The notes beneath the pieces were generated by a model. That model saw nothing but the letters and a program-made list of their open reading frames with translations. It did not search any database and had not been told where the DNA came from. Shown here piece by piece: positions 34,801 through 55,839 of a DNA stretch of 64,000 bases. Positions within the stretch are counted from its first letter, which is position 1; the number at the start of each line of letters is the position of its first letter. The DNA is from Siniperca chuatsi (taxonomy: Eukaryota; Chordata; Actinopteri; Centrarchiformes; Sinipercidae). Both the position numbers and the translations under genes were made by a program. The stretch covers positions 10,509,151 to 10,573,150 of the forward strand of contig NC_058063.1 of assembly GCF_020085105.1 (NCBI RefSeq), written 5' to 3'.

Positions 34801-37800
34801 TATTTTCCAGCTGATATTCAGGATGGGCATATTATAAAAATAACATTCCACATTCATAATTTAAAGTAATTTAATCAACTACAATTACATGATCAATGCA
34901 GATACAGTGTGCAAGGACTGCCTTGAAGTTGTCTTTAAAGGCGGTGTATGTGATTCTGGAGAAATCCAATACCATGACAAATACCATGATATAGAGCAAA
35001 CAACAGCACAGCAAGTGATAAAACTAACGTTAGCTAGGTTGTGGGTTAGCAAACTGTCCCTACAGTTGCTGCTGCGAAGCTAACAGCCAGCGAGGACGAG
35101 ACGGTTTCCCAGAGCCAGCACACCAGCTCCAGACAGCGATACTTACAATTCTCCTGCTACTATAGCAAACATCACAACAATAGCATATCTTGGCAAACTA
35201 GAAAGTAAGCTGAATGTCCGTGGGCAAGTCATTTAACGTTACCTGGCACGCAAATCATGGCTGGAATGGCTGGAATAGTGATGTGTGGCTCGGTCCAAGC
35301 CACTTTGTTTGTTTAGCATTTACAGAGCCAGGGCTGTGTACAAACACCGAAGTTTTTTTCAGCACACTCACTGAGCGGACAGCTAGCGGACCATGAGGAG
35401 ATATTCGCTGAATTTGGCAAAAAGATGTGTATTGAATTAGAATCCCATGATTTTTTTCAGAGAGCTGAAAAGTACATACAAAATCGTTACAAATGAGAGC
35501 AAGCTGTTTCAAAGATTGAAGTTGTTGTTTTTAAAAAGATCCTTCAAACAGATTAAATGATTTGTGTTGATCTTTACTCCACAATACCTATAATTTAAGG
35601 TGAAAACAATCCAAGAAAAGCATTTATTTTGATTCCCCTGTCTACGGCACTTTTCTAAACTATTAAACTACTATCTCAACACTGAACTCTCTCTTTTCCT
35701 TCTCTGTACAGGGCTCAGGCGTAGCGAGAGTCTGTCTGAGAAGCAGGTGAAGGAGGCCAAGTCCAAATGTAAACGTATTGCTCTTCTTCTTACGGCTGCT
35801 CCGCCCAACCCCAACAACAAGGGGGTGTTGATGTTCAAGAAACATCGGCAGAGGGCCAAGAAATACACACTTGTGAGCTACGGCACAGGAGAAGACGAAC
35901 CAGAGTACAGTGAGGAAGAGGACGAGGAAAACGAAGACGACAAACAAGAAACCCACACTGTTGAATTTACCCTTGTGGCTCCTAACGAATCTGAAACAGA
36001 CAAGCACTTCCTCACTAATGCCCATAGTAGCAAAGGTGTGCTAACTATCAACTGGGACAGGGGTCTCCTTGAGATTGAAAGGAACCTGAACAACCAAGCA
36101 GAGATGGAATGTTTGCCTGAAACCAAGGGCAAGGGTGCCCTAATGTTTGCCCAACGGCGTCAAAGGATGGATGAGATTTCTGCTGAACATGAGGAGCTTA
36201 GGCGCCATGGGATTCCAGTGGAAGGAGTGCCAGAGGCTGAAAAGAAGATAGCGGAACACTCCTACATGCAGTCCACAACAGAAGGCCATGCTTACATGGA
36301 TGTAAATATACACCAACAAAGCCAACAGCAACAACAGTACCAGCAATATCAGGAGCAGCAGTACTGTGATCAACAACAGAACTACCAAAAACAACAACAA
36401 CAACAACAACAATACCAACAACAGTATCAGCAGCAACAGTATGAACAACAGCATTATCAACAACAGCAAATGTATCAGCAGCAGCAAGAATATCATCAAG
36501 AGCAACAGCAAATGCAGCACTATTCTACAAACATCAATGGCACAGTCCAACATCAAACTAGTGAAATGCAGAGTTCCTTCAGCAATCGTACTGCAAAGCC
36601 TTTCTCGGTAGAAAACATGGCGGCCACCCCTTATTCTCCCGCAATGAGTGGGACCAATCAAGATTCTGTGGGCCAAGGAGAGCAGATAGCTTCCCGAGAT
36701 GAGCGCATTTCTACCCCTGCAATTAAGACTGGGCTTTTGTTGGATGCAAGAAGAAGAAATACTGGCAAGCCTATGTTCACGTTTAAGGAAGCACCAAAAG
36801 TATCACCTAACCCAGTATTGCTAAACCTCCTCAACAGGAGTGATAAGAAGTTGGGTTTTGAGTCAGGACCTGAGGAAGACTACCTTAGCCTTGGGGCTGA
36901 GGCTTGTAATTTCCTCCAGTCTCAACGAGTTAAACACAAGACTCCTCCACCAGTGGCTCCAAAGCCTGTGATCAACCCCAACTCTCCTCCTTGGTCCCCA
37001 CAGATAGAAGTAACCAACCAGGACATGCCTCAACAAGCTGAAAATAGTGTAGCCACACCTGCTGTAGCCCCCACCACAGAGACTACCCCTGCTCCAGAAC
37101 TAGAGCCAACACCTGCACCTGCCCCTAAGCCCTCTCCCCCTCCTGCCTCCCAGGAGGCTCCTGCCAACACCACTGCAGAGGAACAGCACACATGGATTCT
37201 CCCGGAGTCTGAATCCCAACAGCCTCTGCAAATGACAGCTCAGGAGGAAAATTGTCATATGAATTCTACCCTGCAGCCTGAGCCTGCTCCTAGCTGGGCA
37301 GCAGCACAAACACAAGCACAACAACAGCCATCTACCAATTCTTGGCATCCAGCTCAAGTGCAGCCCCAGGAACCACCTCCAAATCAGTCGCCATCACAGC
37401 CACCTTGGGTGACACGTCAACCTACTCAGACCCAAGCACAGCCTCAACCCACCACAAATACTTGGACTCCTCAAATTCAGCCATCCTGGAGTCAGCCTCA
37501 AGAGCAAGCACAGTCTCAGCCGCATGTTCAGCCACCCTGGACGCACTCTCATGAGCAGCCAAATCTGCAGCAAATGCAACCAACTTGGGGTCAACCTCGA
37601 GAACCAATGCAACAGCAGCCCCAGGCCGCATGGGCACAGCCATCACAAACAGACTCTCAGCATCAACCACTATGGGTGAAACAACCTCAGCAAAAATCCC
37701 AAGCACAACCTTCTTGGATTCAACAGGTTCAGCCAGAATCCCAGACACAGCCACCATGGGTTCAACAACAACCATGGCCACAAGCCCAAGCACCAGGTCA

Positions 37801-39373
37801 GTCTCAACCACCTTGGGTCTCAGCTCAACCTCAACAGCAACAGCAACCTTCAATTAATGTATGGCCCCCATCACCAAATCAAGCCCAAGTTCAGCCACCT
37901 TGGATCCAAGCAACCCAAGCACAACTTCCAGCGCAGCCCCAAGCCAATTTGAATCCATGGGCACCAGTACCTGCCCAGGCTCAGTCCCAACCATCATGGG
38001 CCCAGCACCCTTCAGAACATGGTCAGCACCCCATGAATTCTTGGGCCCACGAGCAAAATCAGGCCCAACATCAACCACCTTGGGCTCAACCAGTTCCACC
38101 TCAGCCCACACCACAGCCAATTTGGCAACAGTCCAATTCAAAGACTCCACCACAGCCACCAATGAATACATGGCCTTCAGCACAGACACCTGAAAATGCC
38201 TGGGCACCACAGTCACAGCAAACACCTGTGAATGTTTCCGCGTCAATGGTGAACACCTCTCCAAAACCTTGGCATCCACCTCAAAATGCCCCACAAAACC
38301 GGACCCCTCCACCTCCTCCACAGCGAATGCACTCTTTTACCATCGGTCAAAGAGCTTCATCACCTATCAACCCACTGGCCACTGTCTTAATCCCATCATC
38401 CCCAGGTTCAGCTTTTGAGATGCCAGCCGTCAGAGGGAAAGGAGCTGATATGTTTGCCAAAAGGCAGTCTCGTATGGAAAAGTTTGTTGTGGACTCTCAG
38501 ACTGTGCAAGCAAACAAGGCAAGCCGGTCAACATCGCCAGTTGCTTCCTTACCAAATGAGTGGAAATACACACCCAACGTACGTGCTCCACCTTCACGGG
38601 CATATAATCCTATTCAGTCCCCCTCTTATCCCCCAGCAGCAACAAAGCAGGCCCCTCCAAATAGCCCTTCAGCCAAAGCCAAGAAAAAAGGCAAAGAGAA
38701 ACAAAAGCCTGCCCCTAAACCCCTCAATGTTATAGATGTTATGAAGCATCAACCCTATCAACTCAATTCCTCACTCTTTACCTTTGGCCCAGCAGCAGAA
38801 GCAGCAGTAGAAGCTGCCAAGCCCCCTGCATCTAAGCCTGAATGTTCACCTCCTAACCCAACTGTCGAAAACCAACCAATTAGATATGAGCAAATGGCCC
38901 CCGTCCAGCCAGCTGGACCATTTAATACCCCATATCCCCAGCAAGCCTACGGGATGCCCATGCAGCCTCTGATGCATGATGGCCACTACCAGCAAAACCC
39001 AGCTAATTTTTATCCTCCCTCCAATCCTTATCAACAACCTTCTGGTGGTCCATACCAGCAAGCATATAACCAACAGTATCAGCAACCTGCCCCACCTGCT
39101 TATCATCCCCAAGCTCCTCAGTCTCCAAACCTTCCCTACCAACAGGCACCACAGGGCCCTTACCAACCAGCCAATAGCCCTCCCTACCTGGCAGCCCCCT
39201 CAGTACCTTACCAGCCACAGTCTCCCATTAGCTATGTTGCTCCTAGTTTTCCTATAGCTGCAAGGCCTGAATCTGTATCAGGTGGCAACATTGTAGCTGC
39301 TCCTAAACCTAAGTTTACAGCTAAAAAGAGCTCAGCTCAGGTGTGGAAGCCTACAGCAATTGATAAAGAGTGA
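23250..39373 (+). CDS. synpo2: Synaptopodin-2 (myopodin), short C-terminal form, 1570 aa
   Basis: Actin-bundling Z-disc and stress-fibre adaptor that binds alpha-actinin, filamin and, through PPxY, the BAG3 WW domain (family knowledge). Exons: 23250-23357, 31116-31267, 32546-33336, 35712-39373; phases 0, 2, 1 join cleanly to TGA at 39371-39373. Residues 1-87 form the PDZ domain (GGAPWGF carboxylate loop; VVSLNGEPCADL). Exon 3 (87-350) is acidic and Ser-rich. Exon 4 starts with the family block RRSESLSEKQVKEAKSK and holds a Gln/Tyr tract (551-619), ASRDERIS, PPPVAPKP, a Trp-spaced Pro/Gln region (879-1204), KGADMFAKRQSRMEK, a PPAY motif (1478-1481) and the end QVWKP. The human forms I recall are about 1093-1261 residues; the excess lies in the Gln and Trp regions. 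Start: first ATG, matching the family MGTGD N terminus. Confidence 0.93.
23717..23726. promoter_or_regulatory. Consensus CArG box (SRF site) in synpo2 intron 1
   Basis: CCTTATATGG matches CC(A/T)6GG exactly, 467 bp downstream of the synpo2 ATG. SYNPO2 belongs to the SRF/myocardin-responsive smooth-muscle programme in mammals. Matches of this degeneracy are expected about a dozen times by chance in 64 kb (another, CCTTTTATGG, is at 1934), so position is the only support. Confidence 0.35.
23864..23895. repeat. (CAAA)n microsatellite
   Basis: Imperfect ACAA/CAAA tetranucleotide run in synpo2 intron 1. Confidence 0.9.
28798..28832. repeat. (GT)n microsatellite, one interruption
   Basis: GT run broken once by GGG, in synpo2 intron 1. 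Confidence 0.93.
33394..33419. repeat. (GT)n microsatellite just after synpo2 exon 3
   Basis: GT run beginning 58 bp downstream of the donor at 33336/33337. The donor CCA/GTAAGTACC is strong. The open frame that runs through this donor into the repeat is intronic read-through, not coding. Confidence 0.93.
34935..35480. repeat. Putative interspersed repeat in synpo2 intron 3
   Basis: Begins near TTTAAAGGCGGTGTATGTGA and is locally GC-richer, with TAACGTTAGCTAGG and AACGTTACC words, unlike the AT-rich intron around it. It resembles dispersed nonautonomous sequences I associate with teleost genomes. No clear terminal repeats or target duplication were located, so boundaries are approximate. Confidence 0.4.
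36311..36517 (+). repeat. synpo2: CAA/CAG-encoded Gln/Tyr tract in synpo2 exon 4
   Basis: Residues 551-619 contain about 45 Gln and 10 Tyr in 69 positions, encoded by mixed CAA and CAG codons. The longest pure Gln run is seven. Interruption by Tyr, Glu and Met makes this a low-complexity, prion-like segment. Length is likely to vary between individuals and species. Confidence 0.9.
37295..38272 (+). repeat. synpo2: Degenerate Trp-spaced Pro/Gln repeat in synpo2 exon 4
   Basis: Residues 879-1204 contain 23 Trp at an average spacing of about 15 residues, in contexts such as QPPWVQ, PSWSQP, NTWTP and QPPWIQ. Between the Trp residues the sequence is almost only Gln, Pro, Ala, Ser, Asn and Thr. 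At the DNA level this is a diverged CAG/CCA-rich tandem array, which also opens long shadow frames on both strands. Confidence 0.85.
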
Positions 39374-42300
39374 TTCTGGTAGAATCATGACTTGCTTGGT
39401 GTCTGTTTGAGTTAAAGGGATGGTGCTCTTGCAGTCCACTGCCAAGAGGACTATTCTGAGCACATAAACATGATTTTGCAATGACTATCTTTACCTCTAT
39501 CTGATGTTGTTACTGTCATAGGGCAGAGCTTGATGGTTTTCAAAGTTTTGAGGGCTAATGTGAATGGCATCACAAACAAATTAAGAACCTAAGAATAAGG
39601 ATGGGATGTAAGTATTTCTTACCAGACAAAAAGGAGCCAAAATAATTGTTGATAAAGCATGTACATTTTAACATGTTTATAGAAAATGATACATATGCAT
39701 ACCTAGAAAATCACTATAAATGACATTGTATGTAATTTTATGTAAAAGATGAGGCAAGTGATGGCAATATAAGAATGTAGGGGAGCATGATGCTCAGTAA
39801 GAATTGAAGGAAAGGAGTGAGAGAAAAAACAAATCAGAAACAAATGGTATCAGACAGTGAGAACAGGAAGTTGATTTTTGGAAAGAAAAAAATTCGAAAT
39901 GTGCCTAATCTTATTTGATAAACAAAGAAACAAATGAAAAACAACTAAAACACAATACAGTTGAATAAAATAATCAATTAAATTGATAAAGTAAAAATAA
40001 AAATAAAGTAGTTAAGGAGAAGGGTGGGGTCTGCGGGGTGAAATGATACCAAGTAGAAGGCTAAATTTGCAGTCAGTGATGTCATAAATACACCGATTAT
40101 GTAACAACTCTGTGAAGTTTCAACTAAAGGCTGGAGAATACATTGATACTCCTTACCAAAAGTGACACTTTTTGCTTGAACTAATAATGTTTGATTAGTA
40201 AACAATTTATTCTTCAGTGGCTTTCCCCAGTGTCTTTTCCATAGGACCTACTTAAGTGGGTTAATTTTATTTTAAGCTTTTTACCAGCTGTTGCATCATG
40301 TTAGGTACTATATTTAAACTGTCTCATGAGAGGGAGTGCTGAGTTCCAGAGATAGTAGGCTTAAATTTCAACTTAAGCAAGCGAACACTACTATATCTCA
40401 GAGCCTTGCAGTATTTTTTTCTGAAAACACAAAAATATATATTGTTGCCCACTCCACTAGCTTCTCTCTTCCATGCATCTTCTCCTGCTTTTGTTTTATA
40501 TGAATAGAATATAAATTATATACAAAAGAAGAATTATTGAAAGGATAACCAGCCTGGTACTGTTCACAAATACATTTTTGGTACAGGGCTGCTTTTATTT
40601 TTCATGTTCTTTTCTTTTTCCTTTTCCTTTGTGTGTTTCTCTTCATAGTGCACTTTCTGTATGATTCACTGCAGTGCCATTAAACTGTCTTTTATCCTTG
40701 TTTGGCTTTCCTTTCTTTTGTCCTTTGAGCATGCTCTTTGGTTTTCTTCTATTTCTAGTCTCTTTTCTTTTCATCTTGCTGAATTTTACACTTCTCCACC
40801 TATACTATAAATAATGACAAAGGTATTCTATATTTGCTCAGAAAAAAATTCCAGCTACAAATCAATCGGTTTCTACTCAAGTACCATCCAATTAGTCTAA
40901 CACTTACACCTACTATCTTTTTGCAATAACTGTGGTTCAAAATGAATCCGTTTTCAACAATAAAATGAAATACACTCTATAAAGAGCTTGTTAACATCAG
41001 ACGAAAACACCTCATTATCCAAATTACCTACTTTTACAGAAATTTTGGTGAATGCTTGAGAAGCACATTCCTGCAGAATGTCTAAGTGATGATGTATGTA
41101 TGAAAGGTATTATTAGATTGGTGACTTCACTGAATACAGGCGAGCTCGCTGGATAATTCTGGAGGTCAAGTGAGTGGGCCCCTGCTGAAATGTATATCCA
41201 TGTTGTGTCATGCATTTTCAGTTATTTGTTAAGTGGAAGTTTTAATATCAAATGGTGTTTTAAGTTGGCAGATTTCTGCAGCTTTATCTGGAGGAATCTG
41301 ATTCTTACTCAAATAGCTAGAGTTGACCCCCACTGCCTCATTGGCTGATTACAAATAGATCTTTATCTCAACCGTACTTTGAAGACAAATGTACATTTAA
41401 ACGGTTGTGTTATTCATACATAAATCAATTTAAACATGTTATTTGTGCATAATTAAAATAAAATGGAGACAACAACCAAAACTTTACTCTAGTCCGCACA
41501 TTAATAGTTTACTTACAATGTTAAATGTATACTGATACTACTAAACTGGTACCTCATACTGTATATTATTTAATACATTTTTTTCGGGATAAGGCAGGAC
41601 AAATGTTCTACATACAGATCACATTAAGATCTCAGATGAGTCCAACCTTCTACTCTCAAATGTACTTTCTTATAGACCCCAGAGAAAACCTTACCTTGGC
41701 CTTACCATAAAACTATACAAACAGAGCCAAAACACATCTGTCTCCAAACGGAAACCTCTGTATGCACACCGTCATCACTCTTAAAACCAACTCAGCCCCA
41801 TTTCTGAGATATATATTAAAATCTGCAGAGTGGCAGCTAGATAATAGACAAATATAATAGGCAAATATATAGCCATCTAGGCAATCTCCTTCAGTAGAAT
41901 GAAACTATGACCTTAGATTGTCTACTAATCTACTCATACATTCTTGTGTCTGCCCTAATCCAGGATAACGCTGCCACAAGCATATTAGGCCTACGAGATA
42001 CCTGAGTCAGCAGAAAATTTATTCCCCCTTGACTCATTCAGCTACATTTTTCTTTTTTTATGACTGCACTATTTTCTATTCTGTTCGTTCATTTTTGCCA
42101 CTTCTTGCCATCTGCTGAGTTTACACATCTTTCACCAGATGATGGCAGCACTGCCTTTTCTGCATGTCTGCCATGTCCAACAGAATGTATTGTACAGAGA
42201 CGATGAACAGTGCAGAGGTGCTTTGTCACCCCACATAACCCTTGGTTGTCTAGGCATCCTAATGAAGAATTTAGTATTGAGCTTTTGGCAGTTTTACCAT

Positions 42301-42781
42301 CTCACTGTTATCCTGTCAACATGTTGCTGTCTAGCAAAGCAGATCCAATGAAAACAAGCTGAATGTGGCTTACTCCAGGAAGCCCAGGCACTCTCATAAG
42401 CCAGTTGTTCTAAGAAATAAGAGGGCAGTTCACTCTGTTTGGACAAACGCTAAAGCACTGGGTTGAGGAGGCTTACTGTGGAATGGACAATGAAGTCCAT
42501 AATAAGTTTAAAGTTTCCTAGAGCTTTTAACAGCTTTAAAAGTTCATTTATTTTTCTGACTATTTCATGATTTTACATATTTATACAAAAATAATCAAAC
42601 AGAGAACAATTTAAAACATGAAAAACAAGTTTAGAGTATTACAGCACTTAAAAGAAATGTGTTGAAAAGAGCTACTCTATTTTCCAACATTTTCCAAGCT
42701 GATTTGATTTGGCCGGAGGGCCGGTCAGCCGAACAAAAATTAACCTTAGTAAAATAAACATGTCTGGATCTTTCTTTACAG
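39374..42781 (+). other. synpo2: synpo2 short-form 3' UTR, and intron for the long form
   Basis: After the short-form TGA, AATAAA signals appear near 39965 and 40003, so the short-form UTR could be about 600 nt. Downstream to 42781 the sequence is AT-rich without a recognised exon. In the long form, 39341-42781 is removed as an intron. Confidence 0.6.
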
Positions 42782-43381
42782 GCACTTGGCAGGAGCTACT
42801 CCCTTTCCCCACCAACCAGAGTACCATCCACAGGCCAGAAGTCAGCTTCGGCTTCTTCTTCCCCAAAGCCTCCGGCTCGAGCCTCCACAACTCCCCCAGC
42901 AAGGCAGACATCCTGGCTGGAGAAGGGCCACAAACCCCTGACACCCTGGGAGGCCGCCTCCCGGCATCCCCTGGGCCTAGTGGATGAAGCCTTTGCATTC
43001 CAGAACCTCCAGCAAACCCTCGCCTCAAACGTCCGCTTGGCAGCTCAGCGCAAAATGCTGCCCGAGCCGCCAACAGAGTGGAAGGCCAGGGTTTCTTACC
43101 AAGCCCAGCAGAAAACAGGCAGCCAGACTTGGAGCCAGAGCCAAAGTCGCAGTCAGAGACGAGCTCCGCTACCATCATTTGTCTCCCCAACAAGGAGCAC
43201 TGTCTCCACCCCTGCCTGTCATGCTGGTTACAGGTCTCTGCCCAGACAGTGGCAGCCTCAGAGGCCTGTGGCAGATGCAAACCTGGGGCCCTCAGTGTCC
43301 TACTCTGAGTATAAGATGCCCTTGGGAAAACAAACTTACAAGTCTGTGTACACCAGCAACACTTGGAGTTGGAAGCGGTAG
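42782..43381 (+). CDS. synpo2: synpo2 alternative terminal exon (199-residue C-terminal extension)
   Basis: The acceptor ttctttacag/G at 42781/42782 opens a phase-0 frame of 200 codons ending TAG at 43379-43381. It would join the in-frame donor CAG/GTGTGG inside exon 4 at 39340/39341, replacing the final ten residues (VWKPTAIDKE) and giving 1759 residues. The encoded block HPLGLVDEAFAFQNLQ, LASNVRLAAQRK, LPEPPTEWKARVSY and GYRSLPRQWQPQRP resembles, from memory, the C-terminal region of long SYNPO2 forms and other synaptopodins. Multiple SYNPO2 isoforms are known in mammals. Splicing is inferred from sequence. Confidence 0.85.
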   Translation, partial: ALGRSYSLSPPTRVPSTGQKSASASSSPKPPARASTTPPARQTSWLEKGHKPLTPWEAASRHPLGLVDEAFAFQNLQQTLASNVRLAAQRKMLPEPPTEWKARVSYQAQQKTGSQTWSQSQSRSQRRAPLPSFVSPTRSTVSTPACHAGYRSLPRQWQPQRPVADANLGPSVSYSEYKMPLGKQTYKSVYTSNTWSWKR

Positions 43382-46077
43382 GGTACAGCTCAACCTGTGT
43401 GACCTTAAATGAGTAAAATCCCAAGTTTCACTGATTCCATAACACATTCACGTGCAGTTAGAGCATTTCCCTTTTTAATTCATCAATATATAAACAAACA
43501 ACGATATGATGAGTGAGCTAATATATAATGAAGTGGACATTTGGAAAGATTGTTTTTTACTGGTTTGACTGGTTTTGACATGCTAATATCATTTTTTTAA
43601 TGCTTTCTACTTTTTGCTGTTAAATCTTTAGTATAAAATATTTTAGATGAAATCTTTGCATGCCATAATCAAAAAGAGATGATCACTCTAACTATGTATG
43701 GAGACTTAAAAATTATTTCAGTAACATTTAACTGACAACTTTGTAGCTTGGTTAATACACTGAAGTGGGCTTGTAGTTCATCAGATGAAATAATGAGTAT
43801 GTTGTTCAGAATGGATATAATGAGTGTGAATGGACATGCATAGTACAAAATAAGTTGAAAGACTTGATATAGTAGCAGTATATCTGGAGATAACTGTAAC
43901 TCTTGACCGTTCGGTGAACCTTTCAGAATATACAAAATAGGTAACTATGGTGTCCTGAGAAAAGATATATGTGAGGATGCTAAGAGAGAGAAAGAAACAG
44001 TGACCTACCCATCCTATAGTAAGTTGGAAGTGAAGATTCTCTTTTGAATTGTTTTCAGCTTGGGGATGGATTTCCTGTGCATGCTGGTTTAATTTTCTGC
44101 TGCGGATGTACGTATCTAGCATGCTGGTTCTTGCAGTGATTGTGCACTTTTTTATGGTTTTTTTTAATTTTCAATCCATGAAACTTGAGGGTGCTGTTTT
44201 CAGATCAGGAAATCATTTCACTGTCAGATATACAATCAGTGATGCATTAGAAGGCTTAAAACTTGGGGAAAGGTTAGTGCTGTAACTCAGCATGTTGTGG
44301 GCGGACATGTGGTTATGTAAGATCTAATAAGTGAGATTAATTCACTCATTTACCTGGTGCATTTTAATTATTACTAATACTAATTAATCTACTCAGAGAT
44401 GGAAGATGAGAAGCCGGGGCATGCTTTCTACAGACAGTTTTCCAAGACTTTTTTTCTTTGGGCACCTAGAAAAACAAATGAATTGTCACATTCCAGCTCA
44501 AAGTGTATGAAAAAATGTGATGCAGTATGAAGGAGGACAATGGAGTTTTAGTTGGGAGCATAAGTTGAATTGAGGAATGTAGATGAGTCCTAATTATCAC
44601 AACAAAAAAGATTGTTTTAGTTTATGATAGGTTTTGCTGGCACTGGGAGAATTGCTTACAGTATGTAATGGGTTTGTGGCTTTTGTTAGGTTTGGGATTT
44701 TGCTATAGACTTGTAATCATCTCCAAAGATTAAAGCTAGGTTGATGTTTCCCCAGAGTGTACATAATGTCCTAATGTGATTCTCACCAAGCAGTCTCATA
44801 AACATAAATAAGATTTATCACACAGCATTGTGTTGTGTCTCAACTGATTCACTGAACATCCTGACATACTATAGTGTATCTGTGATAATTACACTGTATT
44901 GCTTCCATTCAAACATATTATGGTCATAATACAAGACCAGTAATCAATTTCTGTTCCAAAGTAATTCAGATATGGATTCACATAAAGCATTTTACAAAAT
45001 AAATACAACCAAATAGCACTATTGTGTTTGTGCTCTTTGCTCTCTATTCCAAGCATAACATACTTGGCTCTGGGCCATTTGTTGCTTGCTGTATCATCCC
45101 ATGAAGCTTTTTGTGTGATGTGCTGTCTTGAATAGTCGCTCACTCCATATCCAGCGGAGGGGGTTGGGAGGGGTTGGTGGGGACTTGTTCCCATGGTGAC
45201 CACCAGTTACATAATAACAGTAGGTAACCACTGTAGCTGAACCATTAGAGAATGAGAGATAAGGACACAGAGGGTGATGATAAACAGAAATTATTTCCCT
45301 ACCAGTTTAGATTTTGAAAATGCTGTGCGGAATTCAAATGCTATTAAAAGGGTGGAGCTTGAATCTGAGTATGAACAACCACAAAGTGCAACACACATAG
45401 CTTTGAAACATTTCATTCAGTGTATGGGGTTCCTGGCATAGTTATCTTTATGCCAGATGTTGCAGTATGTCAATGAACTTGTTGCTTTTAACATCCAACC
45501 TTATGCTTTCCTGTCCCGCTGGGTGCTGCAAACTCAACCTGCCTTCCTTTATTTGTCTCTTTTACCAAGTAAAGAAATATTTAGGAGGTAAATTTAATTG
45601 AGCAAGGTCAATCAAAACATGGTGACTGGATTATAAGGTGAGTGAACCCTATTAGGCCTTAGTCCCTCCTATATCACATGATGGCATTTAAAACAAATAG
45701 TATCTGATTGGTCTGCAGGCCCTGAGGGTCCGTGTTCCCATGCTGGATGTCACTGAGTATATTTATTGTTGGCTGTGCACTGCACATTTTGGAGCGCAGA
45801 TAAAGAGAATTGCAGCTGACACAACTTTATTTTTGATGTTAAAGCTCTATCAGGGGTTTTCATCCCTTTGATATTTTTCTATTCATGTATATTTGCAATG
45901 CTGCAAGATTGCAACAGATTATTGCCATTTGTATAGGTGAGTCATATAGATCAGTGGTTGTCAAGTACCCCCATTAACAACACTCATCATGTTCCAAATA
46001 TGTCCATTTTAAATGATTTGCAACTGGATATTATTTAACTAATGACTAATGAATACATGTGGATATAATACTGGATG
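43382..46077. other. synpo2 long-form 3' flank and intergenic DNA
   Basis: AT-rich, with no recognised gene. Candidate poly(A) signals include ATTAAA near 44728 and AATAAA at 44999-45004. Open frames here are short and lack family features. Confidence 0.5.
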
Positions 46078-46624
46078 TTAGCTGTTTCAATCATTTATCC
46101 ATTTATTATTTAAGCTAATTATTACATTACAACCATTTATCCCCTACTTTTAGCTAACTGTTTATCTTTAAGCTATTTCAATAATGTATCGATTATTATA
46201 AGCTATCTATTAAACTATTTATACTGTTAGCCATGTCTGTATCCATTAACTTATTTTTAGCCTATTTCAACTGTTAAATCATTAATTGTAGCTATCTATT
46301 TAAGCTATTTATCCATATCCTATCTTACCTATTTCGAACATTTATTTAACTATTTTAACCATTTATCCCCTACTTTTAGCTAACTAATATAACTTATCCA
46401 TTACTTTTAGCTATTTCAATCATTATTCATTACTTTTAGCTATCTGTCTCAACTGTTTATATTTTAAGCTAACGTTAACCTATTTCAACAGTTCATACTT
46501 TTAGCTAGGCCTATCTATTTTAGCTATTTTTCCATCTTTTTAGCTTTAGCCCTTACTTTTGGCTATTTCAACCATTTATCCCAGAGTTTTATAGCTATCT
46601 GTTTCAACTATAGGCTATTTTAAG
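46078..46624. repeat. Degenerate minisatellite (AGCTATTTCAACCATTTATCC-like), left part
   Basis: Words such as TTTTAGCTA, CTATTTCAACC and CCATTTATCC recur many times with variable spacing. The array is diverged, without exact periodicity by eye, and resumes after the LINE at 47.34 kb. Confidence 0.75.
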
Positions 46625-47325
46625 CAATTTCAGAATCAGAATCAGAAATACTTTATTGATCCCCGAGGGGAAACTCTTTTGTTACAGCAGGTCCCCTTTA
46701 CTTCAGTGCACACAGGAATAGAAGTGCTAGCAAAAAATATAATGCACTATAATACAGGTCAGAAAATAAATCAAGTACCAAGTGGGTATATGTATAAAGT
46801 AAAATAAGTGTGAAGTACAAAGTGGGTTTACCGGTTGATGATAATAAAATGGTATACAGTAATAGTGCATGAACTGTCAAGTTAAGTGTAGCTTATTAAG
46901 GTTATAATGAGACGGAGGATATTGCACAGCAGTAATAGAGGTATGAGTAATATCAATATCAATAAATAGGGAATTTTAAACTAAAACATTGCACAGGAGT
47001 ATTACACAGAATATTGCACAATTATGTCAAGTATTGCAGAGATGTAATGATCAATGTCCAGTTTAATGACTTAGGGTCATACAGACTACACTTAGAGGGA
47101 GGAGTTAAAGAGTTTGATGACCACAGGCAGGAATGACTTCCTGTGGCGCTCTGTGGTACTTTTTGGGGGGATGAGTCTTTGTTTGACCAGCACATCATGG
47201 AGTGGGTGGGAGACGCTGTCCAAGATGGCATGTAGTTTGGCCAGCATCCTCCTCTCTGACACCACTGACAGAGAGTCCAGCTCCACCCCCACAATGTCAC
47301 TGTGGGGGTGGAGGATAGCAGGACT
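46625..47325 (-). mobile_element. 5'-truncated LINE (L2/Rex1-type) 3' end
   Basis: Read on the minus strand, the element ends with a poly-adenylation-like GGGGATCAATAAAGTATTTC and a short TCTGATTC tail at 46650-46625, the common 3' end of a teleost non-LTR retrotransposon group. Upstream, minus-strand 47310-47092 keeps an open frame (LDSLSVVSERRM, then RHRKSFLPVVIKLFNSSL), like the extreme C terminus of the LINE ORF2. Reverse transcriptase and endonuclease are absent, so it is a dead 5'-truncated copy. The exact clade is uncertain. Confidence 0.75.
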
Positions 47326-47334
47326 AGGCCTATT

Positions 47335-47515
47335 TATACTTTTATCCAAGTATTTCAACCATTTAGCCTTTAACTTACTATTTCAGCTTTATCCATTAAT
47401 TGTAGCTATGCATTTCTATCTATTTCAGCTATGTATTCATACTTTTAACAATCTATTTCAGTTTCAACCATTATCCATAACTTTTAGCTAACTGTTTCTG
47501 CTCACTTACTAACTA
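47335..47515. repeat. Degenerate minisatellite, right part
   Basis: Continues the same vocabulary as the array left of the LINE (TATTTCAACCATTTAGCC, CCATTAATTGTAGCTA, AACTTTTAGCTAACTG), showing that the LINE inserted into a pre-existing array. Confidence 0.7.
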
Positions 47516-47753
47516 GTTTTCAGACACTCTTAATGACAAAATTGTTTAGGTGTTATGAATGTGGATATATATTTTTAATCAAATCGTAAATTATATTTTA
47601 TCAAATTAGTTGAGTTCATCTTTCCGCATACCCTGGCAACTGCAAAAGTACCCCTGGTTGGGAATCACTGATATAGACCATCCTGAGCTACTGTAATGAC
47701 ACTAGCAGAGAGAGAGATAGATGGAGGGCAAAGCGAGCAGCAGTGGCAGCACT

Positions 47754-47763
47754 CTAAATTTAG
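47754..47763. promoter_or_regulatory. Consensus MEF2 site upstream of myoz2
   Basis: CTAAATTTAG is a perfect palindromic match to YTA(A/T)4TAR. It lies about 60 bp above a guessed start site and 260 bp above the candidate first-exon donor. MEF2 drives many Z-disc genes. Matches of this degeneracy are expected around ten times by chance in the window, so only placement argues for function. Confidence 0.4.
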
Positions 47764-47819
47764 TCTACCCTTCTTATTCACGCTAGTGAACTAAATACCA
47801 ATGACAACAGACAAACTGA

Positions 47820-48023
47820 CACCCACCCACCCAGTCAGTCAGTCACTTTGTCAGTTGGTTCAGACTGCAGTCCCCTCCACGGCAAGCCCCAGTGCCGGGG
47901 AGCGTGAGCACCACCACAGGTCGCACTACCCAGTCTGACCCTCTTGCCTCTCACCTTTCTGACTTCCTACCCTAAGGAGACAGGCACAACTTGCGACTCC
48001 CCCCTGAGGGTCCTTCAGGACAG
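47820..48023 (+). other. myoz2: Candidate myoz2 noncoding first exon
   Basis: A strong donor ACAG/GTAAGCC at 48023/48024 ends a GC-richer segment about 900 bp upstream of the ATG exon. A TATA-like CTAAATA lies at about 47791. The upstream boundary is a guess from the TATA-like position. Confidence 0.4.
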
Positions 48024-48921
48024 GTAAGCCATCACAAGGGCTCTCCACAGGTGTGCTGTCTAGTTCTAACGTGACACTTTGAATCAAGCATGATTCATCT
48101 ACTGTGGTTCCCTCTACATTTTCCTGTCAATCACACAGCTTGTCTTGTGTCACAGTTGAATTTTATTTCAGAATTTTCTTAAAAATTTTTTGTTAATATA
48201 TTTTTGATAAATGCATCTCCTTTTTGTCTTTTTGCTTGACGTTTATATGTAGGGAACATCCCTAATATTTAACAGCAGCAAGTATGCATAAATCCCCAAA
48301 CATTTCCCAAACCAGACAAGTTTGCAATTAAACTTTGCAAACATGTCTATTATCTACTGAGCCGAAACCAATGATTTCCAAATGATGAAGTGGTTTGCAC
48401 GGTGAATAGACTTTGGCATTTTCTATGAAATGCTCCTTTGTTCCATCAGGAAACTTTTTGAAAAGTATTTTGGATTGGAATGAAACATTTGTGTTGTGTT
48501 CACTGACACCTTGGTGTAAACTTTCCACTGTGCTATTTCATCCACTGTCTTATGTGTTTGCTGTGACAGCGCCATGTTCTCTATGTGTGTCCTTTCAGCC
48601 CACTTGGGTAATTTCAAACATATTGATTCCCAGACCCCTGGGCCCTGACACAGCTGGTTGCCATGTCTGAAAAGCATGTGCTTGGTGTTTAACAGCCCAA
48701 GGTTATTTAAAGGGATGTGCTAATTTTGCCCTTTTCACTGCCCCAATAAATTCTATCTGCTTCGGTTGTGCGTAGTGTGGATGCTTGATGTTGGCCAATC
48801 GATGCCAACATGCAGCCATGCTGTCTTGCTTTTGTGTCTCTTTGTACGTTTGAACAGGTTGTACTAATGTGCGCTGTCTCCTGTAACTTTTTGCCTCACC
48901 CCTGACTCCCCAGGGGCAGCC

Positions 48922-51900
48922 ATGTCACAGTTCTCCACTATGACAACCAGGGAGAGGAAAATACAGGCGGCAGCAATCTGCAGGGAGGTTCAAGCCCAGG
49001 AAGGTAGTTGTATCATTTCCTCTTCACTTCCTGGTTTTCTAATCCCTCTAACCACTCAGTTTCTCTCTCTTTCTCTTGTTGCATCCTTTCTTTGCTTCTG
49101 TTTCCATCTCACCTTCTCTCCTTCTCCCCACATCCTGCTCCTTTCACCCCTCTACATTCTTTTTTCATCACATGTATCAACATAGACGCAGATTTAACAC
49201 CATAGCTTACAGTACACATTTAATTCTCAGACATATTAATTTTACTGTAAACACCAGCTCACCCTGTCTGACACACACGCACTGGACACTGCCACATTCA
49301 CTTTATATAAAGTATGAGCCCACCATTTGCCAGTGCAGCAGTTGTCAACCCTCCCTTCTACGACCCTGACTATAAATAAGTAAATGAATACTTTTACAGG
49401 TCAAAGTAACTAATCCCTTTATCGTTGTCCTTTGAACACGCTATTTCAGGGTGAGGACAACTGTGTGGCTGGGATAGGGAGGGTCTGAAGACTGCTGACA
49501 GCTGAAAGATATTCTGGCAAATTATGCGCCTCACACCTGGATATAGGCCTATGACATCTCCATGATCAGCATGCAGTAGCTAGCATGCGGCACTAACCAC
49601 AAAACAAGCACTGGACATGAGACATGTATTAGGAGGGAAGATAATTCCTCATTCATCATATTGGCAGGAATACCAAGTCAGCAATCCATGTAGAGGGCTT
49701 TTTTTGCAGCATTGTTTTATTTTTTCTGTGTGAATATAATTTGTGTTCAATGAGGTTTGATATGTGGGAGTATAGGAAATAAGAAAAGAAGTTTGTATTG
49801 TCAGAAATCAGATAAATTACATATTAAGTATATATTGTATACACAAGCTCTTTAGTCATTTGTTTGTCTCCGTATATCCAGATATAGAGATGGATCTTGG
49901 GAAGAAAATGAGCGTGCCTAAGGACATCATGTTGGAGGAGCTGTCTTTTGCCTCAAACCGAGGCTCCCGTCTCTTCAAAATACGCCAGAGACGCTCAGAA
50001 AAATACACTTTTGAGAGCACCCAGAATGAAAACAACAAGCAGCTCAATGTAAGCAGAAACTGTGATGCAATAATCACATGGGAATGAATACAAAAACACA
50101 ATCTCATCAAGTCAATTATGTCTAAATTGTTTGTTATAGGAGTAGTTAGACATTATGGGAAATACATTGATTGCAAAGAGTTAGATGAGAAGATCAATAC
50201 CACTCACAAGTCAGTGTTTTAACTACATGGATGGAGCTAGAGCCAGGAGGAGACAGTTAGCTTAGCTCAGCATAAAGACTGGAAGCAGGGGGAAACAGCT
50301 AGCCTGGCGTGTTAATTCTCAGCAAGAAAGCGAATAATCGTATTTCCCAAAATGTCAGTAATTTTTTAAAATAAATTCACAGTAGATCGATATGGATACA
50401 GCTAACTATTAAAACACACTTTGATAAAGGGGTTTTTGTAAGCATTTCACACTACCAGAGAGTGTTTTCTTCATGCACAGTCATCCATTTTCACCACATC
50501 TTTTTCCTCCATCACATGAATAACATTCGCACAATACTTTACATCCTGACAAAGCACATGTGGAAAAGATTAAACACTTGAAGTGTTTATTTGACTCGTG
50601 CTACAGACATGGAGCGACATAGAATAGTAGTTGTGAAAGTCTTACAGCAGGTCATAGGTAGCTTTATTAATGTCCCTTTGTGTATGGTATGGATGGGCAG
50701 TGTGCCAAGTCAGCATTTTGTTTTCCCAGCAGTACTTATCTTAGCCTGACCTGGTCACACATCAAGCTATTTATGTACCAAAGCTCTCAGTAAAATTTAA
50801 TCAAGATAAACTAAGTTTCTCTTTGTTATATCTAATTAATTAGCAGCACTAGTTTTATCCTCTTTCATTTAGTTGTTTGGTGGCCTTGTGTACTTTTCAT
50901 TGCCCTCTTGAAGTCCATAGATAAAATAATTATTATGCTCCAGGGAAGTTTTCCCCCTCATCTTTGAAGTGAGAATAACTCACATATTTCTGGTTTGTTT
51001 ATTGCTCGGGGCAATGGAGGGATTTTGTTTCAAGTTGTCAACATTTCCTGAGGAAGTCCTGGCGTAAATCATCATAAATATCTTTCAGAGGGATGAAAGC
51101 TGGGTGCTTGGGCTGCCGTACATTTCTTCCCAGCCCACAGAACAATGTTTCTAATGTAAGGAAAAGTGGACACCCAGACAATTTCTCTGCTTCTTGCTGT
51201 TGTTTAAAAACATGTAAAATTAAGATTTGTTAACTGCTTTGAGTCCACATGAAAAATTTCACAGACACTACTATGCCACCAATTAACTGTGCAAAAATAT
51301 AAAAATATAATCCAATGTGAGACAGGACGTTGTTGATGAAACAATCTCACCATGAGGTCCACTTAATAGCAGTTCTGGAGCTTTCAATCATATTACACAA
51401 TCTTCCTCAGCAGATTGAATTTGCACAGTTGTCATGGACATGTAGATGTTCAATTTTCCATGTTTGTTAGTGCTTTAAAGACTCTGCTTGTCTGTGTTGA
51501 CAGCTTTTGATTTTATCACACAATCTTCCTCAGCAGATGGACATTTGTCTTTTTTAAGCCAACATGGATGAAAAGTCCTTAAAGTTGCTATAATCAATGT
51601 TTTGATATTAACAATGGCTCAGATGACTATGTTTAAGTGAAAGGCAAAGAATTATCACCCATGTCTGCAGTTCTCCTCAGCTCTACAGAGCATTTTTTGC
51701 ATCTTTGAAGTTTTTTATTTTTGTTTTCAGAACTGCAAATTGACTGTTTTGTTCACTCTCACACTCTCTTCTGAGTCTTCTCCAGCAGTATCAGGCAGCT
51801 GTTGACAGCGCAAACTATACTCTACCTGCCCAGCACCAAATGGCAGACAGACAAAGTTAGCGACTAGCTGGTGAAGAAAGTGGAACATTTAGCAGCTAAT

Positions 51901-54167: not shown

Positions 54168-55839
54168 CACAGGGAAGCTGCCCCTTGATTTGTTTTGCTG
54201 TGAACTTTAATAAGAAATAAAGGGATAAAGAAAAACAAGTGCAAGGTATTGCAATGTTGCACACTCAGAGTGATATTAATAAGTTACATAATATATATAT
54301 ATATATATATATTATTCTTATGGAGTTTGTATTTTTTTCTATTTTCTTTTGTAATTGGACTATTGAATTGGATTGGACTATTGAATTGAATTGGAATATT
54401 CAATTCTTTCCTCACTCATCTTCTCTCTCTCTCTCTCTCGCACCCACACGATCTGATTTGCAAAAAACCCCCTTGCAATCAATGTTACAAAAAAGATTTC
54501 ACATAATACTAAGTACTTTAAAGCTGAAAAAAGCAACTTCGACTCATCATCACATGATGAGACATCAGCAAACTGCATGCACTCCTGCTTAAGCACTCAT
54601 AACCAGCTGACTAGTTTGTGGTTGTTTTATGTAAAAGGAAATCAAAGGGAATTTCGAATTTGGCTCTTAAATTTCACTTCATTACCAACCATGTTTGGGG
54701 AAATGCCCAACCCAGACACCAGAATTGTTTTGGAAAAATAGAGTTAAATTGAAAAATATAAATAAATAGATAAAAAAAATGTAAAAGTGAATACACTTAA
54801 AAAAGAATGGAGAAATGAATACCTGCACTTTGGCTGACATATAAAAACCGTGTTTTCAATCACTGTCTGTGCTGTAAACCCACCCAGGGTACGGAAGTCC
54901 TTTGAAAGACATCCCTCCAGAAAAGTTCAACAGTACAGCAGTGCCAAAGTCCTACCACTCACCCTGGGAGCAGGCCATCATCAATGACCCGGCCTTGGCC
55001 GGCACTCTCATCACCTGCATACCCGAGCCGGAGCCCCGACTGGACCTACCAGGGTTCAAAAGTTTCAACAGGTAACAACCTTACAGGTGGACAGCAAGTC
55101 ATTCATTAAATAAAAATGGCTACAAAATGCCAAATTTAAAGAAGCAGACACATGTAAACTGAACTGTGAATATTTGGATGATGGTAAATGTTAGACCAGT
55201 AGAGCACACACATAAAGTCAGAAAACTGACACAGTAATGTGATTATATACAGAAATATCTAAAGTTTGCAAGCATTAGCCACCATAAGCTACCAGTCATA
55301 CCAGACCAAATAAGGCTGTAGCAGGAAAACCCCTGAATTGAGAAAGTGTGTATTTAATTGCTTATGAATTCAACTTCATTCATAAAAGGAAATGTGTGAT
55401 ATTTTGTTATTAAAAATTGACATACAAATGCTGAGTGAGCAAAACAAGTACTGTCCTATGCTTCTCATTCTAAGCAGCTATTTCCTAGAATATGTCCCCT
55501 GGTCAAAGTCCTTGCTTGGCTTTAATTAGTTGCATCACTTCAAATGTCACTGCAGTCCCTCTCATTAGCACATGACGACTGCTGTTAAAACACTGTCGCT
55601 CCGTCACCTCCAGGGTAGCAACCCCGTTCGGTGGCTTCAGCAAGGCACCCAGACCTGCTCCCATCAAGCCCCTCCAGGTGGAACCCCTCCCTGACTACCC
55701 TGAGCTCCAGGGGGACACGGCGGTAAATCGACCCTCCTTCAACAGATCTGCTCTCGGGTGGGTGTCGGCGGGCGGTCCAGTCCCCCTCCCTACCGTTTCC
55801 CTTGAGCCTATGCTCATCCCTGAGTCAGAGGATCTTTGA
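48922..55839 (+). CDS. myoz2: Myozenin-2 (calsarcin-1), 267 aa, five coding exons
   Basis: Z-disc scaffold of heart and slow muscle; binds calcineurin, alpha-actinin, filamin C and telethonin (family knowledge). Exons: 48922-49003, 49882-50048, 52278-52422, 54888-55071, 55614-55839; phases 1, 0, 1, 2 join without a break to TGA at 55837-55839. Human MYOZ2 is 264 residues. Visible family blocks: [20 protein letters not shown] (residues 31-50), [18 protein letters not shown] (54-71), [40 protein letters not shown]. The protein ends ESEDL, the acidic PDZ-ligand type shared by myozenins and other Z-disc proteins. The ATG at 48922 begins [13 protein letters not shown]; a second in-frame ATG follows six codons later. 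MYOZ1/3 are unlikely given the length and its place after synpo2. Confidence 0.95.
50145..50361. mobile_element. Short inverted-repeat element (MITE/SINE-like) in myoz2 intron 2
   Basis: Left end GACATTATGGGAAATAC (50149-50165) and right end GTATTTCCCAAAATGTC (50340-50356) are inverted copies with one mismatch. The interior GCTAGAGCCAGGAGG...GCTTAGCTCAGCATAAAGAC...GGAAACAGCTAGCCTGGC is a sequence type that recurs across teleost genomes. No frame is present. Target duplication is not clear. Confidence 0.7.
51577..52145. repeat. Teleost-type interspersed repeat in myoz2 intron 2
   Basis: Starts near CTTAAAGTTGCTATAATCAA and ends near AATGCAGGTTCAAAGTG. Contains CCAGCACCAAATGGCAGACA, GCGACTAGCTGGTGAA and GGTGGCCAGAAACACGACTC, which I recognise as part of a dispersed nonautonomous repeat in fish. 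The ends are weakly inverted-similar. It stops about 130 bp before myoz2 exon 3. Confidence 0.6.
54132..54163. repeat. (CA)n microsatellite
   Basis: Uninterrupted CA run in myoz2 intron 3. Confidence 0.95.
54290..54313. repeat. (AT)n microsatellite
   Basis: AT run in myoz2 intron 3, followed at 54.35-54.41 kb by short TATTGAATTGGA-type direct repeats. Confidence 0.95.
54422..54439. repeat. (TC)9 microsatellite
   Basis: TC run in myoz2 intron 3. Confidence 0.93.

Follow-up and report, generated by a model that had tools for sequence, protein, structure and literature searches.

The closest described counterpart of the element reported here is the Calsarcin domain of synaptopodin. Mouse synaptopodin without residues 464-508, the part so named, no longer forms F-actin inclusions, and the excerpts of the same paper also state the likeness to the myozenin helix and its presence in SYNPO2, SYNPO2L and the fly orthologue CG1674 (PMC11753949). 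Myozenins themselves are covered by the Pfam family Calsarcin (PF05556), a 255-position profile with a curated cut-off of 24 bits, which is independent of the present analysis. The 1-4-5-8 ligands of alpha-actinin EF34, found in the titin Z-repeat, myotilin and palladin, are likewise short helices in disordered Z-disc proteins (PMC8062120, excerpts). Here, we report that a stretch of 64,000 nucleotides from Siniperca chuatsi (NC_058063.1, positions 10,509,151 to 10,573,150, forward strand; hereafter the window) carries neighboring synpo2 and myoz2 genes that share a short motif, with three copies in a single synpo2 exon and one in myoz2 exon 2. The preliminary description of the window knew of no account of such a link, which is wrong for copy 3, the SYNPO-MYOZ likeness at this copy being already present in Pfam Calsarcin and PMC11753949. 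What we did not find in the open-licence literature, outside which most subscription journals lie, is the repeat within SYNPO, the MYOZ helix as in effect a fourth copy, and an origin in paired genes, of which there are five same-contig pairs with like exon starts; the excerpts of PMC11753949 make no mention of copies 1 and 2, gene pairs or a tandem origin, and those of PMC12703992 and PMC11477451 hold nothing on the motif.

The loose pattern [KR]Gxx[LMIV]Fxx[RHK]xxR has four matches in a six-frame scan of the whole window, and these are exactly the four peptides (Table 1), the myoz2 copy lying about 14 kilobases (kb) from synpo2 copy 1 on the same strand. All four are encoded exactly where the preliminary description had placed them, and its residue numbers (387-406, 491-506 and 1260-1279) agree with P0005, the annotated, spliced synaptopodin-2 X2 protein of S. 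chuatsi; the 8 of 20 identities that it had counted between the myoz2 copy and copy 1, and again between the myoz2 copy and copy 3, were each borne out.

In this genome, the searches located five SYNPO loci and five MYOZ loci, both counts being lower bounds. Copies 1 and 3 are each present in all five SYNPO exons, copy 2 in three (the other two are without a match by pattern or by hidden Markov model, HMM), and the MYOZ copy in all five MYOZ loci; in the alignment of these 18 copies (13 SYNPO and 5 MYOZ), G2, F6 and R12 are invariant. Among 120 SYNPO2 proteins (120 of the 1,502 matches listed, the named ones being fishes), copy 3 is kept in 120, copy 2 in 118 and copy 1 in 103 at a threshold of at least 11 identities in 20, and some of the proteins without copy 1, e.g., P0002, start inside it. 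The paralogues are the stronger conservation test because the 120 proteins are close relatives. Poor conservation of the motif within either family, which had been named beforehand as a finding that would speak against the link, was seen neither in the paralogues nor in the SYNPO2 proteins.

The likeness of the SYNPO and MYOZ motifs is beyond chance. Under a matrix built from the five MYOZ copies, 12 of the 13 SYNPO copies outrank every decoy among 103,179 windows, with 31.7 bits for the top SYNPO copy versus 12.5 for the top decoy; the exception is copy 2 of SYNPO locus L016, outranked by 31 decoys. Under a copy 1 matrix and under a copy 3 matrix, all copies of the other kinds outrank all decoys. 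These decoys were six-frame windows of the analyzed stretch and of eight loci (the loci chosen as gene carriers, the decoy windows unselected), and together with a set of PDB sequences they stood in for a genome-wide protein comparison. Profile-profile alignment with hhalign, which the preliminary description had proposed to judge against shuffles, gave a probability of 96.0 and a score of 40.0 for MYOZ versus copy 1, and 94.2 and 34.0 for MYOZ versus copy 3 (93.9 and 33.9 in another run), well above 200 column shuffles per pair (score ≤17.4, probability ≤15%). A HMMER profile of the five MYOZ rows alone was weaker than the matrix: it detected 8 of the 13 SYNPO copies at 7.5-15.1 bits, with at most 5.0 bits on 1,005 shuffled or reversed exons, and at its print limit of 2 bits it missed copies 1 and 2 of the window's contig C22, copy 2 of C3 and copies 2 and 3 of C11, two of the window's own three synpo2 copies being among the misses. 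These five misses, the basic character of the motif and the mostly disordered nature of both proteins would be in line with a chance likeness of two arginine- and lysine-rich disordered proteins, an explanation that the decoys, the shuffles and the conservation contradict and that we regard as having a negligible probability. The pattern also seems to be no generic basic helix, since the motif profile found a sole match, at an expectation value (E) of 1.5, among 177,635 distinct PDB sequences.

Mean BLOSUM62 scores are 43.5 for MYOZ versus copy 1, 45.6 for MYOZ versus copy 3 and 38.6 for copy 1 versus copy 3. With MYOZ standing no farther from either copy than the two are from one another, its helix behaves in effect as a fourth SYNPO copy. 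The Calsarcin profile exceeds its cut-off on three of the five SYNPO exons (L014, 35.9 bits; L016, 33.9; L017, 31.0), falls just short on L015 (23.8) and stays below on the window's synpo2 exon (16.8), and all 15 MYOZ matches among those listed exceed it. Ten short pieces cut round single copies gave eight matches (copy 3, five of five; copy 1, three of four; copy 2, none of one), which cover Calsarcin positions 50-89 only. By arithmetic, the K/R-G of the SYNPO motif and that of myoz2 fall on the same position, about 56, and the helix corresponds to positions about 56-75. The best-matching stretch runs over profile 54-190 in 192 residues of L014 and over 55-213 in 273 residues of L016, which we take for gapped envelopes; the C-terminal FNR/GW blocks of the profile (128-255) are matched by MYOZ exons, not by SYNPO pieces. 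We do not file SYNPO as a myozenin. The termini differ as well: myoz2 ends in PESEDL, a myozenin C-terminal PDZ ligand of the ESEDL type, whereas synpo2 ends in WSWKR or TAIDKE; P0005 has an N-terminal PDZ domain, as in long SYNPO2 isoforms (PF00595, 33.5 bits versus a cut-off of 23.2), and no PDZ match was obtained in the three myoz2 exons scanned (exon 1 lies outside the scan).

Five contigs of the genome each carry one SYNPO and one MYOZ locus. In four pairs, a distance of about 10-14 kb separates the motif exons, which share a strand; those of the fifth, on contig C8 (SYNPO L017, MYOZ L021), are ~3 megabases apart on opposite strands, a split that looks like a rearrangement. Copy 1 of the C8 SYNPO, RGVQLFNRRKQRVNAFTLES, starts with R as do most MYOZ copies, but the MYOZ matrix places it third among the five copy 1s. 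Read by eye, each of the ten motif exons seems to follow a phase-1 intron that lies 24-35 codons ahead of the motif, and this start fits the annotated proteins, i.e., SYNPO2 P0005 and the MYOZ relatives P0124 and P0126. A protein search with the MYOZ query, restricted to roughly 957-3,046 residues and to shared 5-letter words, returned eight proteins at E ≤10, all of them named as fish proteins; other lengths being excluded, absence elsewhere is not shown. Seven of these fish predictions (P0049, P0073, P0121, P0122, P0123, P0125 and P0126) fuse SYNPO and MYOZ parts, probably an annotation run-on, because the two genes lie close together. A SYNPO copy-3 query, under the same kind of word limit and at roughly 1,833-5,833 residues, gave one match, a fish SYNPO2.

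Because of the five same-contig pairs and the like exon starts, common descent, one of the two readings in the preliminary description, is favored, as is a tandem duplication that predates the genome doublings of vertebrates. Convergence, or separate capture of a short docking helix by two families needing the same Z-disc partner, would explain why the likeness stops at the helix borders. Short linear motifs often arise repeatedly, and copies do come or go, copy 2 having escaped both pattern and HMM in two SYNPO exons. It would not lead one to expect about 20 alike columns in genes that are close together in four of five pairs and have like exon starts, nor that so large a set of PDB sequences should give a single profile match, and we consider convergence unlikely.

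Each motif copy is predicted to be helical. In a structure model of 1,190 synpo2 residues, with a mean predicted local distance difference test (pLDDT) of 37, each of the three copies coincides with a helix (copy 1, 37-52; copy 2, 141-165; copy 3, 912-924), and further model helices are at 10-29, 118-126, 175-184, 368-375, 929-940 and 1009-1012; the 53-residue model of the myoz2 exon (mean pLDDT 61) has helices at 15-23 and 27-52. A glutamine- and tyrosine-rich stretch of synpo2 (window about 36305-36523, forward strand) is modeled as one long helix (199-271), possibly a low-complexity artefact. When compared with solved structures, the large SYNPO2 exon had no match at E 1 or less, and the myoz2 exon had two weak matches (E 0.91 and 1.5), taken for chance.

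Copy 3 probably corresponds to the synaptopodin Calsarcin region 464-508. This assignment follows from the Calsarcin match, from the position of copy 3 nearest the C terminus and from the sequence downstream: WKYTPN stands 41 residues after the start of fish copy 3, and the deletion primer of PMC11753949, translated by hand from the excerpt, reads SWKYTTN right after the deletion. The need for the copy-3 region in synaptopodin actin inclusions is taken from PMC11753949. With moderate confidence, we regard the motif as an actin-side docking helix.

A direct alpha-actinin docking site common to both families is a different reading of the same helix, one that the preliminary description had raised as a common docking site. 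Both families bind alpha-actinin (PMC10778272, PMC11070111, excerpts), and SYNPO2 is reported in the excerpts of PMC10778272 to have multiple alpha-actinin sites and to hold most of its Z-disc localization sites in its exon-4 part. Exon 4 is presumably the motif exon, and because of this report we rate the idea slightly higher. The sole alpha-actinin interaction that the excerpts of PMC10778272 demonstrate is that of the human SYNPO2 C-terminal exon-6 part. The 1-4-5-8 hydrophobic pattern of the EF34 ligands fits the 18-row alignment in no register when inspected by eye, i.e., the hydrophobic spacing is not the same. Three myozenin-1 chains in the PDB, 7a8t, 7a8u and 7ank, are without a match to the motif; we presume the latter two to be alpha-actinin complexes. 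The first, 7a8t, is an alpha-actinin-2 complex (PMC10754285). In the longest of the myozenin-1 chains, 41 residues precede the point where its alignment with P0126 begins, at residue 1364 of that protein, and the P0126 motif stands at 1282, a comparison subject to linker lengths that may differ between species. With little support beyond the Z-disc sites in the motif exon, alpha-actinin docking seems to us rather improbable.

The basic strip might instead serve chiefly as a nuclear localization signal (NLS) that binds importin alpha. The N-terminal NLS of human SYNPO2, 58-KKRRRRARK-66, lines up with the central part of copy 1, where the fish reads KKHRQRAKK, alike at 6 of 9 positions; in the excerpts of a review (PMC10405370) it is described as an NLS, with no link to MYOZ. 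The basic run is not kept in copies 2 and 3 or in MYOZ, and two of the three residues invariant in all 18 copies, G and F, are not NLS requirements. We judge an NLS as the chief function very improbable, and we see nuclear import as an additional role confined to copy 1.

The explanation that we lean towards, by a modest degree, is that of a movable helical module with an actin-docking role, its MYOZ copy taken from a SYNPO-like exon. The module would be a helix some 20 residues long, [KR]Gxx[LM]Fxx[RKH]xxRxxxF/Y, in Z-disc proteins that are otherwise mostly disordered, with two or three copies in SYNPO proteins and one in MYOZ proteins. Most likely, the MYOZ copy would go back to a SYNPO-like exon that was duplicated locally and in tandem before the genomes of vertebrates doubled, the SYNPO-MYOZ pair then being copied as a unit. 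Each copy may act as a basic, amphipathic docking helix and so help to keep the protein on actin bundles; with several copies, SYNPO would gain the multivalency needed for bundling, and with its single copy, MYOZ would dock without bundling. Common descent, direct binding, and the roles of copies 1 and 2 and of the MYOZ copy, we infer. A wider version is possible, yet we think it doubtful: the myozenins would be vertebrate offshoots of a synaptopodin gene, in which the piece of exon with one actin-docking helix was duplicated alongside that gene, new calcineurin- and alpha-actinin-binding exons were gained and the pair passed through the genome doublings, leaving multivalent SYNPO and monovalent MYOZ to compete for one Z-disc actin site. 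If the movable module is real, two Z-disc families that are treated as separate share a functional module and probably some ancestry, and an uncharted part of both becomes a testable site, with a single F-to-A or R-to-A substitution in each copy.

Several observations weigh against the movable module. The likeness spans ~25 residues with nothing alike found beyond the helix, and twenty residues are too short to exclude convergence. Upstream of the motif, where the synpo2 and myoz2 models each have a helix, 23 residues score 4.65 versus a shuffle median of 6.3, and 136 of 150 shuffles reach the observed value. A second shared (PWE) block, with SYNPO2 TPWEAASRHPLG as the candidate, was also rejected, the two SYNPO2 places ranking 103 to 1,966 under MYOZ matrices. 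The Calsarcin match is weakest for the synpo2 of the window itself: its copy 1 and copy 2 pieces are the two without a match, and spliced P0005 has none in the profile scan. Introns of phase 1 are frequent, and some acceptors can be read in more than one way, e.g., that of the C8 MYOZ. Helix confidence is low, with ten-residue pLDDT means of 49-52 for copy 1 and 50-56 for copy 3, and only copy 2 (67-79) moderately confident; the myoz2 exon model is of low confidence, too. Finally, according to the excerpts of PMC11753949, the isolated synaptopodin Calsarcin domain fused to EGFP is cytosolic, synaptopodin without residues 384-473 is still on F-actin, and the protein has further actin-associating regions. 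The EGFP and the 384-473 results do not show actin binding by the helix alone, and they point to other actin sites besides it.

Table 1. Motif copies and the exons of synpo2 and myoz2 in the window (positions of the window)
Feature	Position	Strand	Basis and remarks
Large synpo2 exon, all three copies	35712..39373	+	Open reading frame 35633-39373; phase-1 intron at start, acceptor by eye
synpo2 copy 1, KGVLMFKKHRQRAKKYTLVS	35819..35878	+	Pattern scan; predicted helix
synpo2 copy 2, KGALMFAQRRQRMDEISAEH	36131..36190	+	Pattern scan; predicted helix; peptide of the preliminary description, 36131-36178
synpo2 copy 3, KGADMFAKRQSRMEKFVVDS	38438..38497	+	Pattern scan; Pfam Calsarcin region; predicted helix
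myoz2 exon 2	49882..50048	+	Phase-1 intron at start; acceptor and donor read by eye
myoz2 motif copy	49959..50018	+	Pattern scan; Calsarcin profile over exon, E 3.3e-27; predicted helix
myoz2 exon with SPWEQA block, without motif copy	54920..55075	+	Sequence; Calsarcin profile
Last myoz2 exon, C terminus PESEDL	55609..55836	+	Sequence; Calsarcin profile

As to the rest of the two genes, serine 48 of human MYOZ2 presumably lies about five residues before the helix. Its exchange, S48P, is a hypertrophic cardiomyopathy variant (PMC11070111, excerpts). In synpo2, P0005 suggests an alternative splice near 38578 to a C-terminal exon at about 42782. This alternative C-terminal exon (42758-43381, forward strand) showed no link to MYOZ in the MYOZ matrix test, and it contains a block, PWEAASRHPLGLVDEAF, that is kept in L014. 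Another conserved block, LNVIDVMKHQPYQLNSSLF, lies 3' of copy 3 (about 38723-38779, forward strand) and is also present in L014, there on the reverse strand. Between about 37295 and 38272 on the forward strand, the large synpo2 exon encodes a run of Q/P/W repeats with QPPW-like units, in which fifteen tryptophans stay unchanged throughout an alignment of the window with 16 related proteins.

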